A stretch of 64,000 bases of DNA. It comes from Rhodospirillaceae bacterium. Its GTDB lineage: Bacteria; Pseudomonadota; Alphaproteobacteria; Rhodospirillales; Casp-alpha2. Location of the stretch: the NCBI GenBank assembly GCA_016845145.1, contig JAERTE010000018.1, positions 1 through 64,000 on the forward strand, read 5' to 3'. Positions 36,910 through 49,834 of the stretch are shown here, piece by piece (positions within the stretch are counted from its first letter, which is position 1; every line of letters starts with the position of its first letter). Made by a program: the position numbers and the translations under genes. Under the pieces are notes generated by a model. The model was given only the letters and a program-made list of their open reading frames with translations, was not told the origin of the DNA and ran no database searches.

Positions 36910-37003
36910 GGCAGTACTCCCTGAAATTGTCGTCCCGTGCTAAACATAGGGGCTGGGAAGTATCGAATAAAGAGTGGGCCAAATAAACAATGGGGAGAGC
37001 GGC

Positions 37004-38443
37004 ATGGACGCCAAGGATTTTGTGCACGACTATCTGGAGCGCAACGCCGACGCCCTGAACGACGTCATCGATGCGCTGTTCTGGTATGGTGAGCCGGCCA
37101 TGCAGGAAGTGCGCTCGGCAGCATTGCTGACGGGAATTCTGGAGGACGGCGGCTTCAACGTCGAGCGTGGCATCTCGGGCTTTCCCACCGGCTTCATGGC
37201 GACGTATGGCTCGGGCGGACCCGTGGTCGCCGTGCATGCGGAATACGACGGCGCGCCCGATAACTCACAAGCGCCCGGCGTTGCCGAGCACCAGGCGATT
37301 ATTCCGGGTGCGCCAGGCCATTGTGAGGGCCACAACGTTAATGCGGCGGTCTTGGTCGCTACCGCGCGCGCCGTCAGCCGTGCTATGCGTGAGCACAGGA
37401 TCAAAGGGACTTTGAAAATCTTCGGGGCACCGGCGGAGGAACTGGTGTTGGCGCGGCCCTACTACGTGCGCGACGGTTATTTCGACGACGTGGACGTGGC
37501 TTTTCATCCGCACCTGCGTGAACGCCTGTCAACTGAATACGGTGTCTTGCAGCGCGCCGTGGTGTCTGCGGAGTTTGTTTTTCATGGTGAGACAGCACAT
37601 GCCGCCATGTCGCCGTGGAAAGGCCGCAATGCGCTGGACGCGGCGCTGTTGATGGATAGCGGCATGGCGCAATACCGCGAGCACCTGAGCCCGGGCATGA
37701 ACATGCACCGCGTCGTCACCGACGGCGGCAACCAGCCCAACGTGATCCCTGCGCGCGCCGCGATCTGGTGGTTTTTCCGCGATCATACGGCAGACGGCGC
37801 CAAAGGGCTGTTTGAGCAAGCCCGCAAGGTCGCCGCAGGGGCGGCACAAATGACCAACACGGAGCTGGAAGTAATCGTGAAAACCGCCGTATGGCCGGTG
37901 CGCGGGAACGAAGCCCTGGCGATAGCCCTGCAGCGCAATATCGAAGCGGTCGGCATGCCGGCCTGGAGCAACGCCGAGCATGACCTCGCCAATCGCTTGC
38001 AGGCCGCCAATGGTGCGGATGAAGAGGGGCTCCGGACGGAGGTGGATACTCTTGACGGTCCGTCACAGTCCATCGCTGCCGCCAACGATTGCGGCGATGT
38101 GTCATGGAAGGTGCCCATGGGGCGGTTGTGGTTCCCGGCCAATGTGCCGGGCGTGACGTTTCATCATTGGTCAGCAGGTTCGGCGCTAGCCACATCCATC
38201 GCGCATAAGGGCGGGCTGGTCGGTGCACGCACCTTGGCGGGAACATTGATCGATTGCCTCACAGACCCCGACATCATCGCCGAAGCGAAAGCGACGTTTG
38301 CCGAGGAGACCAAGGGCGTTGACTATGCACCGATGATTCCCGACGCGAATACGCCACCGTTGGATACTAACCGGCAGTTGATGGAAAAATTCCGGCCATC
38401 GATGGAATCGCGGTATGTGGAACCCCAGCACCGATTCGAATGA
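37004..38443 (+). CDS. M20-family amidohydrolase (AbgB-like)
   Basis: 479 residues of a zinc amidohydrolase/carboxypeptidase. Metal-binding and catalytic regions are VVAVHAEYDGAP, PGHCEGHNVNAA, FGAPAEELVLARPYYV and the dimerisation-lid motif HGETAHAAMSPWKGRNALDA. A late DCGDVSWKVPM and FHHWSAGSALA supply the last ligands. It resembles AbgB (p-aminobenzoyl-glutamate hydrolase) more than succinyl-diaminopimelate enzymes. The start at 37004 follows GGGGAGAG. Confidence 0.88.
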   Translation: MDAKDFVHDYLERNADALNDVIDALFWYGEPAMQEVRSAALLTGILEDGGFNVERGISGFPTGFMATYGSGGPVVAVHAEYDGAPDNSQAPGVAEHQAIIPGAPGHCEGHNVNAAVLVATARAVSRAMREHRIKGTLKIFGAPAEELVLARPYYVRDGYFDDVDVAFHPHLRERLSTEYGVLQRAVVSAEFVFHGETAHAAMSPWKGRNALDAALLMDSGMAQYREHLSPGMNMHRVVTDGGNQPNVIPARAAIWWFFRDHTADGAKGLFEQARKVAAGAAQMTNTELEVIVKTAVWPVRGNEALAIALQRNIEAVGMPAWSNAEHDLANRLQAANGADEEGLRTEVDTLDGPSQSIAAANDCGDVSWKVPMGRLWFPANVPGVTFHHWSAGSALATSIAHKGGLVGARTLAGTLIDCLTDPDIIAEAKATFAEETKGVDYAPMIPDANTPPLDTNRQLMEKFRPSMESRYVEPQHRFE

Positions 38444-38550
38444 CACTTTGAGACTGAAACTTGCAGAAACCTGAAGGTAAATAGCTAAGCTATTGAAAAA
38501 CAATAAAAATAAAAATTCACTTGTGTGACCATCGTCACTGATAATTGGAC

Positions 38551-38675
38551 CGAATAAGACCATATTAGTTGTGTAAGGAGCGCACCTCCCTGAGTATCCT
38601 CCCCCCAACTCCCCAGCGTTCCTTACATCCTCCCTGTCAAACTTGCCGGCCCGAAAGGGCCGGCATCTTTGTTTT
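38551..38675 (+). ncRNA. Candidate trans-acting small RNA with anti-Shine-Dalgarno loops
   Basis: An 11-bp stem, TGTAAGGAGCG (38572-38582) with CGTTCCTTACA (38617-38627), one G-U pair, encloses a 34-base pyrimidine-rich loop holding CCTCCC at 38585 and CCTCCCCCC at 38598. A third CCTCCC (38629) follows. The element ends in a perfect terminator (38645-38675). A GATAAT at 38540 could be the -10 box, which sets the approximate 5' end. CCTCCC-type loops are the ribosome-site-pairing motifs of alphaproteobacterial sRNAs such as the alpha-r14 and cuckoo families. No open frame occupies the stretch. Confidence 0.6.
38645..38675 (+). terminator. Rho-independent terminator, GCCGGCCC-GAAA-GGGCCGGC
   Basis: A perfect 8-bp GC stem with a GAAA tetraloop followed by ATCTTTGTTTT. 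It lies 202 bases after the M20 gene and ends the candidate small RNA. It is the strongest terminator in the window. Confidence 0.85.
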
Positions 38676-38730
38676 AAGGGACAAATGTGGATGTGTTTTC
38701 TACAATGAGGCGCCATGCCACCCAATCCGA

Positions 38731-39249
38731 ATGAGCCACGTGAGACACATGAGCGAATCTGAGATACCAAAGATTTTTCATGAGCAAATGCCGCTCCTGG
38801 ACCTCGATGCAATCAAGGATGCAGGCCTGCGTGACATGGTGCTCTGCTGGCAGGCCATGTTTGATCGCAACGGAGACATACCCGTCTGGGACATGACATT
38901 CGCCATGGAGTTTCCAAGCCTCGCCGATCGATGCTTTCTGTATGAATTGAATGGTGAAAACGTGGTCACCAAATTCGTGGGAGAGCAAAGCCGCAAATAT
39001 ATCGACCTCGAGCGTACGAGCGGAGATCTGTTCGATCTAATCCCCGAGGTCAACGCGCTTGATATGCACGCGCGTATCCTGAAGTGTGCCGAACAGCGGC
39101 GGCCTAATTATTGTCAGAAGTCCATGTCCTGGAACAAAGACCGCAGCCACTTGAATTATGAGGTCGTGTTCCTGCCATTCCGCAAGAGTGACGATGCTTC
39201 ATGCCGTGTCGTCTACTCTCCGATGTCATTCTATCGGCACGAAGTTTGA
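38731..39249 (+). CDS. PAS-domain protein
   Basis: About 172 residues of a stand-alone PAS-type sensor fold as found in many alphaproteobacteria (MTFAMEFPSLADRCFLYELN, TSGDLFDLIPEVNALDMHAR and a beta-sheet end CRVVYSPMSFY). No output domain is attached. The start is ambiguous between the ATGs at 38731 and 38749; neither has a strong ribosome site. Probably a signalling accessory; the ligand is unknown. Confidence 0.72.
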   Translation: MSHVRHMSESEIPKIFHEQMPLLDLDAIKDAGLRDMVLCWQAMFDRNGDIPVWDMTFAMEFPSLADRCFLYELNGENVVTKFVGEQSRKYIDLERTSGDLFDLIPEVNALDMHARILKCAEQRRPNYCQKSMSWNKDRSHLNYEVVFLPFRKSDDASCRVVYSPMSFYRHEV

Positions 39250-47749: not shown

Positions 47750-49834
47750 GTGGAACACCGCCATTCATCGCCGTCGCCACGCCAGACACTGTTTACCGAC
47801 AGTGAGCGGACCACACTGACCGATACACTGCGTTTTGTCGCCGAACGCGCATGGCGGGTGTCAGGCACCGGCTTCTTTATTGAGTTGGTCTCTTATCTGG
47901 GTGAAACCCTGGATGTGGCCTTCGCATTCTGCGATATGATCGATCCAAAGGACGATATGACGGTGCAAACGTTGGCGTTGTACGCTCACGGCGAAATTTC
48001 AGAAAACATAAGCTATAGCCTCAAAGACACGCCGTGCGAAAACGTCGTCGGTAGTGAATTTTGCTGGTATGGAGAAGACGTCCAGCGGCTGTTTCCGAAT
48101 GACGAATTGCTGGTCGAAATGAATGCCGAGAGTTATGCCGGCATACCGCTGTGGACTGCTCACGGAACACCACTCGGCCTCATCGCCGTTATGGACGACA
48201 AACCGTTGAAGTCGAGGGAATTGGTACAGACCGTTCTGCAAATTGTTGCGGTACGCGCCGGCGCCGAACTGGAGCGACTGCAGGACGTCACTAGATTGCA
48301 ATCCAGCCAGCAGCGTTTCTTGGATTTCGCCACCGTCAGTTCGGATTGGTTTTGGGAGACCGACGCTGACCTTCGATTTTCATATTTTTCCGATCGTTTT
48401 GAAGATGTAACCGGGGTTCCGCCGTCGCAACTTCTTGGCAAGACCCGAGAAGAAGTCGGCGCACCTGGCGCGAGCATCGGTGCCTTCGAGCAGTTATTGG
48501 AGGACCTGAGAGAACATCGATCATTTCGGGATTTTCAACATCATCGTATCAAACCGAATGGCGAAAAGGCCTACCTGTCTATCAGCGGGCAGCCCGCCGT
48601 AGACGAAAACGGTGTTTTCATTGGCTTTCGCGGTGTCGGGCGGGAAATCTCAGATCAAAAACTGGTTGAGCGTGAGTTGATTGAGAGCCGGGATGCGGCT
48701 CGGCGGGCTAACGAAGCGAAGTCGGAATTTCTGGCGAGCATGAGCCATGAACTGCGGACGCCGCTAAATGCCGTGCTCGGGTTTGCTCAAATGATGTTGC
48801 ACGATCCGAAACAGGCGCTTTCAAAACCGCAGATCGAACATGTGGAATGTATTTTGACGGGTGGCGGTCATCTACTCGACCTGGTTAACGATATATTGGA
48901 TCTGGCTCGGATTGAAGCGGATCAAATCGCCCTTTCCGTCGAGGATGTCACTGCAAATGACGTCGTGCGGACCTGTGTCAGCCAGTCCAGAGCTCTTGGT
49001 AAACAACGCGCGATCAAAATCACTGATCGTTTTAGTGCTGAGATGCCGGTGATTTTGCGCACCGATCGGGTGAGGCTGAAACAGATCCTTCTTAACCTTC
49101 TTTCCAATGCCATAAAATTCAATCGCGATGAAGGAACCGTGACGCTGGAAGGCAAGATCATCGACCAGAGGTTTCTGCGTATAACTGTCACAGACACCGG
49201 TATCGGCATCAACGATGACGAAAAACACAACGTCTTTCAGATGTTTCATCGACTCGACGCAGACGCCATGTTAGCGCGCGAGGGCACGGGTATCGGTCTA
49301 ACGGTCACGAAATTCCTGATTGAACGAATGGGCGGCAGTATCGATTTTCAGAGCCGCGAAGGCGTCGGGAGTACGTTCTCAATCGATCTCCCGCTGAGCA
49401 CAAACCGGGAAATTTTGATATGGACCAACGATCTGCGGGTAGGCGTCGACGCCATAGATAAAGATCATCAGGTGATCGTTACTCTGTTGAACAGAATGGC
49501 GCATGAAGATGTTGGCACCAAAGTCGCGAATAAATCCGTCGAGGAAATGATCAGTTACACGCATTATCACTTCCTCAGGGAGGAAGCGATCATGGAAATT
49601 ATCGACTACCCAGAACTCGAACCCCATCGGAAACGGCACCGCGATCTCGTCAGCCAGATCCAAGGAATGTCTGACTCCTGGACCACTGAAAACGATGAAC
49701 CGGCGCGAATTGAGTTACGTCGGTTCCTTCGCGATTGGTGGACACACCACAACTTGAACGTGGATATGGAAATCGCCCGTTTCACCTCCGGCAAGGAGCA
49801 GAAAATCAGCGAGGCTTTGAGCCGAATTGGATAG
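47750..49834 (+). CDS. Sensor histidine kinase with PAS domain and C-terminal hemerythrin domain
   Basis: 694 residues from a GTG behind AGAGGG (an ATG seven codons earlier lacks a ribosome site). Domains in order: GAF-like (about 20-180), PAS (190-305), HisKA with phospho-His333 in SMSHELRTPLN, HATPase_c (N-box LLNLLSNAIKFN, G-boxes DTGIGINDDE and GTGIGLTVTKF), then a bacteriohemerythrin domain (about 570-690). The di-iron ligands of that domain are visible as AIDKDHQ, YTHYHFLREEAIM, HRKRHRD and WWTHHNLNVD. No membrane segment is seen, so it is cytoplasmic. The hemerythrin suggests sensing of oxygen, nitric oxide or redox state. No response regulator is adjacent. Confidence 0.9.
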   Translation: MEHRHSSPSPRQTLFTDSERTTLTDTLRFVAERAWRVSGTGFFIELVSYLGETLDVAFAFCDMIDPKDDMTVQTLALYAHGEISENISYSLKDTPCENVVGSEFCWYGEDVQRLFPNDELLVEMNAESYAGIPLWTAHGTPLGLIAVMDDKPLKSRELVQTVLQIVAVRAGAELERLQDVTRLQSSQQRFLDFATVSSDWFWETDADLRFSYFSDRFEDVTGVPPSQLLGKTREEVGAPGASIGAFEQLLEDLREHRSFRDFQHHRIKPNGEKAYLSISGQPAVDENGVFIGFRGVGREISDQKLVERELIESRDAARRANEAKSEFLASMSHELRTPLNAVLGFAQMMLHDPKQALSKPQIEHVECILTGGGHLLDLVNDILDLARIEADQIALSVEDVTANDVVRTCVSQSRALGKQRAIKITDRFSAEMPVILRTDRVRLKQILLNLLSNAIKFNRDEGTVTLEGKIIDQRFLRITVTDTGIGINDDEKHNVFQMFHRLDADAMLAREGTGIGLTVTKFLIERMGGSIDFQSREGVGSTFSIDLPLSTNREILIWTNDLRVGVDAIDKDHQVIVTLLNRMAHEDVGTKVANKSVEEMISYTHYHFLREEAIMEIIDYPELEPHRKRHRDLVSQIQGMSDSWTTENDEPARIELRRFLRDWWTHHNLNVDMEIARFTSGKEQKISEALSRIG

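Follow-up and report, generated by a model that had tools for sequence, protein, structure and literature searches.

Several small RNAs (sRNAs) of Alphaproteobacteria carry anti-Shine-Dalgarno (anti-SD) motifs in unpaired regions and act by ribosome-binding-site repression, among them alpha-r14 (NfeR1/cuckoo) and alpha-r15 (AbcR1/2). NfeR1 folds into three hairpins, each showing CCUCCUCCC, and with these three redundant motifs represses by pairing where translation starts (PMC10746234). AbcR has one motif, aSD1 CUCCUCCC, in its 5′ loop and another, aSD2 UUCCCCUC, between the stem-loops, and AbcR1/2 repress with these similar motifs by pairing at translation starts (PMC8844928). The promoters of NfeR1, cuckoo and AbcR use LsrB, NtrC or RpoH1.

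In other families a single-stranded motif lies directly ahead of the terminator. Alpha-r8 (MmgR, including SisA-D of Caulobacter) combines a hairpin, a single-stranded ..CCUCCCU.. segment and a terminator, with several siblings per genome; it is defined by a 10-nt core, UUUCCUCCCU, after a weak hairpin and before the terminator, and SisA represses through a similar motif pairing at translation starts (PMC12559287). SorX and SorY of Rhodobacter sphaeroides end in the tail CCUCCCUGU, ∼8 nt closing with ACUU or ACCU, and a terminator. For Rhizobiales, the part of Reinkensmeier et al. 2011 consulted (PMC3927594) gives the SmelC671 model, in which a conserved CUCCCUGU stays single-stranded, flanked by a variable hairpin and a terminator. 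Closest in logic to the locus described here is CyaR of enterobacteria (E. coli), an sRNA activated by Crp-cAMP and showing, according to the same part of that source, a partial anti-SD loop (PMC3927594). The likeness is functional only, as sequence and lineage are unrelated.

Comparison with described families

We analyzed a stretch of 64,000 nucleotides of Rhodospirillaceae DNA (the window), in which the RNA element occupies positions 38571–38675 of the forward strand. At gathering thresholds, Rfam finds a tRNA only in the whole window. The nearest covariance models for the element all score below gathering, so that membership in these families was rejected: SorX (RF02784) reaches 20.1 bits against a threshold of 46.6 (E = 0.014 in a 321-base search), SorY (RF02651) 18.1 against 111, and alpha-r8/MmgR (RF00519, suhB) 17.5 against 41. 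SorX and SorY are the best Rfam models for the element and for most of its siblings, which score up to 43.2 bits with SorX. SorX differs in that it derives from an mRNA 3′ UTR (PMC8625941), by release through RNase E, whereas the window element has a promoter-like site upstream, which speaks against such an origin; the portions of the SorX and SorY literature consulted mention no CRP promoter. In place of the alpha-r8 core the window has CAUCCUCCCU, matching 8 of the 10 positions of UUUCCUCCCU, and this follows a strong 13-bp stem with a C-rich loop and a CRP-type promoter rather than a weak hairpin.

Neither CUCCUCCC nor UUCCCCUC occurs in the element, which sets alpha-r15 aside. The initial annotation had also pointed to alpha-r14 and cuckoo, but membership as defined does not hold: the window copy consists of one C-rich hairpin plus the terminator, hence two hairpins rather than three, without an exact CCUCCUCCC or an Rfam match, and no DUF1127 gene, the kind of gene to which cuckoo/CcsR RNAs are linked, was seen in Pfam scans of four neighboring proteins, covering a subset of the small ORFs. 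The CRP-type site likewise differs from the promoters of both families. The SmelC671 description, by contrast, fits the element, in a comparison made by description only; the part of PMC3927594 consulted describes no CRP link for it. Searching the literature for the motif as such led to papers on microRNAs of plants and animals.

Structure and conservation of the element

The stretch at 38571–38675 is very probably a stand-alone regulatory sRNA gene. Its predicted RNA begins with the first bases of a stem whose arms, GTGTAAGGAGCGC (38571–38583) and GCGTTCCTTACAT (38616–38628), enclose a loop of 56% C (38584–38615); other members of the family keep C-rich loops. Two anti-SD motifs lie in this loop, CCTCCCTG at 38585–38592 and CCTCCCCCC at 38598–38606. 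There follows a predicted single-stranded seed, CCTCCCTGTCAAACTTG (38629–38645), the family-wide conserved part, with near-invariant columns, which recurs class-wide and in 72 loci that all have a terminator. The intrinsic terminator, TGCCGGCCC-GAAA-GGGCCGGCA plus TCTTTGTTTT, closes the element at 38644–38675; a local scan found no other terminator-like site. Counted against the sRNA reading is the interruption of the U tract, TCTTTGTTTT.

The three CCTCCC motifs reported in the initial annotation are all present on the + strand, at 38585, 38598 (as CCTCCCCCC) and 38629, as is its GAAA-capped terminator, of 9 bp at 38644–38665. The stem-loop that it described also exists, with a stem of 13 bp rather than 11 and a loop of 32 bases rather than 34. 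Because CCTCCC is otherwise rare in the window (13 sites on both strands, compared with 28.6 in shuffled sequence), three copies within 50 bases are not a matter of composition. A 151-nt fold is more stable than all of 200 dinucleotide shuffles (z = −6.3). None of 200 shuffles gave a stem as good as stem 1; here, as for the family members below, stems were tested against mononucleotide shuffles of short stretches.

Among 100 related genomes, blastn matched the element at 99% identity in the same genus and at 79% and 74% in another genus of the same family. In the four-sequence alignment, stem 1, the inner loop pairing and the terminator each contain compensatory changes, in which both partners of a pair differ, comparative evidence that argues for a real small-RNA gene. 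The window's assembly carries an estimated contamination of 7%; independent support for the element comes from the copy in the same genus. An anti-SD sRNA of the general alphaproteobacterial type, as the initial annotation had proposed, is the best-supported reading; the CRP-type promoter, the sibling family and the synteny are additions to it.

A putative CRP-type promoter

Upstream of the stem lies a CRP-type palindrome, TGTGACCATCGTCACT (38524–38539, +), a putative activator site centered about 41 bases ahead of the predicted start. To judge its recurrence, the pattern TGTGA-N6-TCACA/T with at most one mismatch was sought from −120 to −76 relative to the tail. It was found in 18 of 75 tail loci, with 0.04 expected from the remainder of the same loci; since some of the 18 are close relatives they are not all independent, and they span several genera and families. 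In combination with the tail, a strict form of the site was present in 10 of 317 genomes from the order, and a form with another spacing range in 20 of 314; class-wide the combined pattern was seen in one of 385 genomes, at a place without the stem. Reversed control patterns gave no match in any of the three sets (317, 314 and 385 genomes).

A 5′ stem that outperforms 95% of shuffles is present in 14 of 18 members of a first set and in 14 of 21 members of a second, partly overlapping one, and every one of these significant stems begins 39–43 nt past the center of the CRP-type site. From lineage to lineage the 5′ arms have wholly different sequences, and in most cases a −10-like hexamer stands ahead of the arm; in the window the candidate placed by consensus is CATATT (38561–38566, +), 21–22 nt past the CRP-type site, as are the candidates of other members. 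Some loci with the site have a short 5′ part and no stem. In class II CRP promoters the site is centered near −41.5 from the transcription start. The spacing in this family would give that geometry for a transcript that begins with the stem, at the predicted start.

A matching regulator is plausible from the source genome itself, in which nine proteins pass the PF13545 cut-off. One of them (contig C141, 41391–42086) is a CRP-type protein. It carries TTRETVAR as its helix together with the cyclic-nucleotide cassette FGELAAIDGAPRSASV, and in the PDB it comes closest to regulators of the CRP/FNR family, among them Clr of S. meliloti (7pza) and E. coli CAP. Of 17 relatives tested, 16 have a homologue, and where the helix was read most of them retain RETVAR; no homologue was found in the 83%-complete assembly of the genus mate. 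This protein would be the one to bind the palindrome, presumably with cAMP.

The number of PF13545 proteins also gives some room to another CRP/FNR-family regulator reading the palindrome, or to its use as a repressor site instead of a cAMP-activated switch, with the anti-SD sRNA itself real. The upstream neighbor is divergent in several relatives, which also speaks for this alternative. In the window, however, the upstream gene is oriented towards the site; the distance from site to stem is constant and suits activation; and RETVAR is the one helix among those read that, going by the CRP/FNR family in general, fits TGTGA half-sites. We give this alternative perhaps a minor share of the probability, though the largest among the rivals, and regard activation by the CRP-type protein as the better account.

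A second alternative is that the RNA is a processed 3′ UTR, produced by read-through of the upstream gene and cleavage, the way in which SorX arises from the ompR-1 mRNA. This gene (36974–38443, +), outside the RNA, encodes an M20-type hydrolase, as the initial annotation had it (dimerisation domain PF07687), and it is retained in all four genomes of the alignment. The RNA lies on its strand, 128 bases past its stop, and the closest Rfam model, SorX, is itself derived from a 3′ UTR (PMC8625941). Against such an origin, a conserved CRP-type site separates the M20 stop from the stem, at a spacing that fits a promoter of the RNA's own, and other family members have a different upstream gene, in many cases encoded on the opposite strand. 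Processing from the M20 mRNA is accordingly unlikely, and a separate promoter for the sRNA is preferred.

Directly upstream of the CRP-type site there is an AT-rich block (38474–38520) with TATTGAAAAACAATA, conserved in the genus mate, which could be the end of the M20 transcript or an upstream promoter element. In one sibling RNA of the same genome (contig C148, 14295–14352, −), an FNR-type site, TTGATTCAAGTCAA, replaces the CRP-type site ∼90 bases upstream of the tail. The genome encodes an FNR-type protein with the helix TTETVSR, and this sibling is possibly oxygen-responsive.

Predicted mode of action

Read from sequence, the structure of the element, its conservation and covariation, a promoter site at fixed spacing and a conserved CRP-type protein point to a CRP-activated, trans-acting anti-SD sRNA whose CCUCCC segments block mRNA ribosome sites, and we consider this mode of action probable. 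Specifically, a CRP-type regulator would bind 38524–38539 near −41 and activate as in class II; because it is probably cAMP-bound, the signal would be carbon or energy status. An independent transcript of ∼100 nt would run from 38571 to about 38675, its very 5′ end folding into the stem that displays the C-rich loop, with CCUCCCUGUCAAACUUG left single-stranded and the intrinsic terminator ending the RNA. The CCUCCC segments, two of them CCUCCCUG, would then pair with GGGAGG-type SD sequences of several mRNAs, presumably with the help of a chaperone, and this pairing would block translation. Ribosome-site pairing with repression is the most likely outcome since CCUCCC complements SD sequences of this type and since related bacteria use rhizobial NfeR1 and AbcR1/2, as well as SisA, in the same manner.

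The RNA could instead act mainly on partners other than mRNAs, as the counterpart of a G-rich sponge sRNA or as a decoy that titrates ribosomes or an RNA-binding protein. In Caulobacter, SisA pairs with the sponge CrfA, SisA-D share one seed, and a sponge can mask such seeds (PMC12559287). The siblings described here also share one seed, but SisA itself still represses mRNAs through its own, and we regard a main role as sponge partner or decoy as improbable, slightly more so than an origin in the M20 mRNA.

For mRNA targets of the predicted repression, CAGGGAGG ahead of an ATG was found at 24 sites in the genome, mostly as ordinary SD sequence. About three of the genes recur in the genus mate; among the candidates shared with it, one was read by eye as NrdR and another as a di-haem peroxidase. 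This search gave no conserved target set, and as no pattern is conserved outside the genus, no target is claimed. Elsewhere in the window, CAGGGAGGAAGCGATCATG at 49576–49594 (+) precedes an 80-aa ORF, the only full complement of CCUCCCUG at a ribosome site there.

The downstream gene

The ORF downstream of the terminator (38731–39249, +) had been labeled a PAS gene, a label that Pfam does not support: a scan with E up to 5 gave no match. It is kept only in the same-genus copy, whereas the M20 gene is kept in all four genomes, and a stand-alone gene therefore fits better than a cis-acting leader. That the RNA is a 5′ leader or attenuator of this ORF, which starts ∼60 bases past the terminator on the same strand and is entered by an open frame from the RNA, is very improbable and was rejected for want of a conserved gene downstream (many loci, the 79% and 74% homologues among them, have an oppositely oriented gene there). 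In addition, a separate promoter-like site found by consensus scan (38678–38706, +), probably for the ORF, follows the terminator, and no antiterminator alternative was seen in the fold. The frame itself (38569–39249, +) opens at a TTG and spans the whole RNA, probably by chance; it is not taken as coding since the homologues retain the RNA without that downstream gene.

A tail shared across Alphaproteobacteria

The family tail can be written as CUCCCUGU-YAAACUYG followed by a terminator. Exact matches to CTCCCTGTYAAACTYGCCGG among 84,980 species genomes amount to 65 stretches, nearly all in Rhodospirillales or unplaced alphaproteobacterial assemblies. With earlier loci included there are 76 tail places, of which 72 have an intrinsic terminator immediately after the tail. 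These comprise all of the alphaproteobacterial loci (72/72); the four places without one fall in Phycisphaerales, Buttiauxella, Paraburkholderia and Lentisphaeria, and are for that reason attributed to chance.

With R1, a covariance model of the tail, about five copies are found in the source genome (the window, C35:9119, C148:14295 on the − strand, C11:35745, and C112:253240 on the − strand), and 107 of 289 sampled genomes of the class match at E up to 1e-4. Because the loci behind R1 had themselves been collected with the tail pattern, they necessarily match the model, and the independent part consists of the class-wide matches outside the order. When 20 class-wide matches were compared with Rfam, SorX, SorY and MmgR/suhB recurred, always below gathering, which implies a tail related to these families and wider than them. 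The sibling RNAs that share it across Alphaproteobacteria form a so far unnamed group, and the tail suggests that one superfamily may lie behind several separately named alphaproteobacterial sRNAs, missed by present Rfam models.

We tentatively extend this to a broader proposal, one that may well be wrong in part: a lineage-wide Rhodospirillales sRNA gene would couple carbon status, through a CRP-type class II promoter, to repression by multiple anti-SD motifs, as an independently evolved counterpart of CyaR, and the tail would be one ancient module found in SorX, SorY, MmgR, SmelC671-like and several unnamed sRNAs. Siblings within one genome would differ in their 5′ halves and in their promoters, be these CRP-type, FNR-type or other. 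If true, the gene would parallel enterobacterial CyaR with unrelated sequence. The family is concrete and testable, in a lineage where sRNA work is thin, with predictions for its inducer (a CRP-type regulator, probably with cAMP), start, end and seed.

A second class-wide sRNA type carries the same tail, represented in the source genome at C112:253240–253302 (−) and at further loci (L028, L043–L058, L233–L258). This type has a proximal hairpin, ACGTCTCCCAGACGTGAAGC, ahead of CTCCCTGTT and is highly conserved across alphaproteobacterial families, yet in the loci scanned it scores under Rfam gathering. Another sibling RNA of the source genome (C35:9119–9179, +), also present in the genus mate, has two hairpins, the first with a run of ten C in its loop. 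In one further genome (G483:C1:3175400–3176500) three tandem tail modules with different 5′ halves lie within 0.6 kb, an arrangement that recalls clustered CcsR-type siblings.
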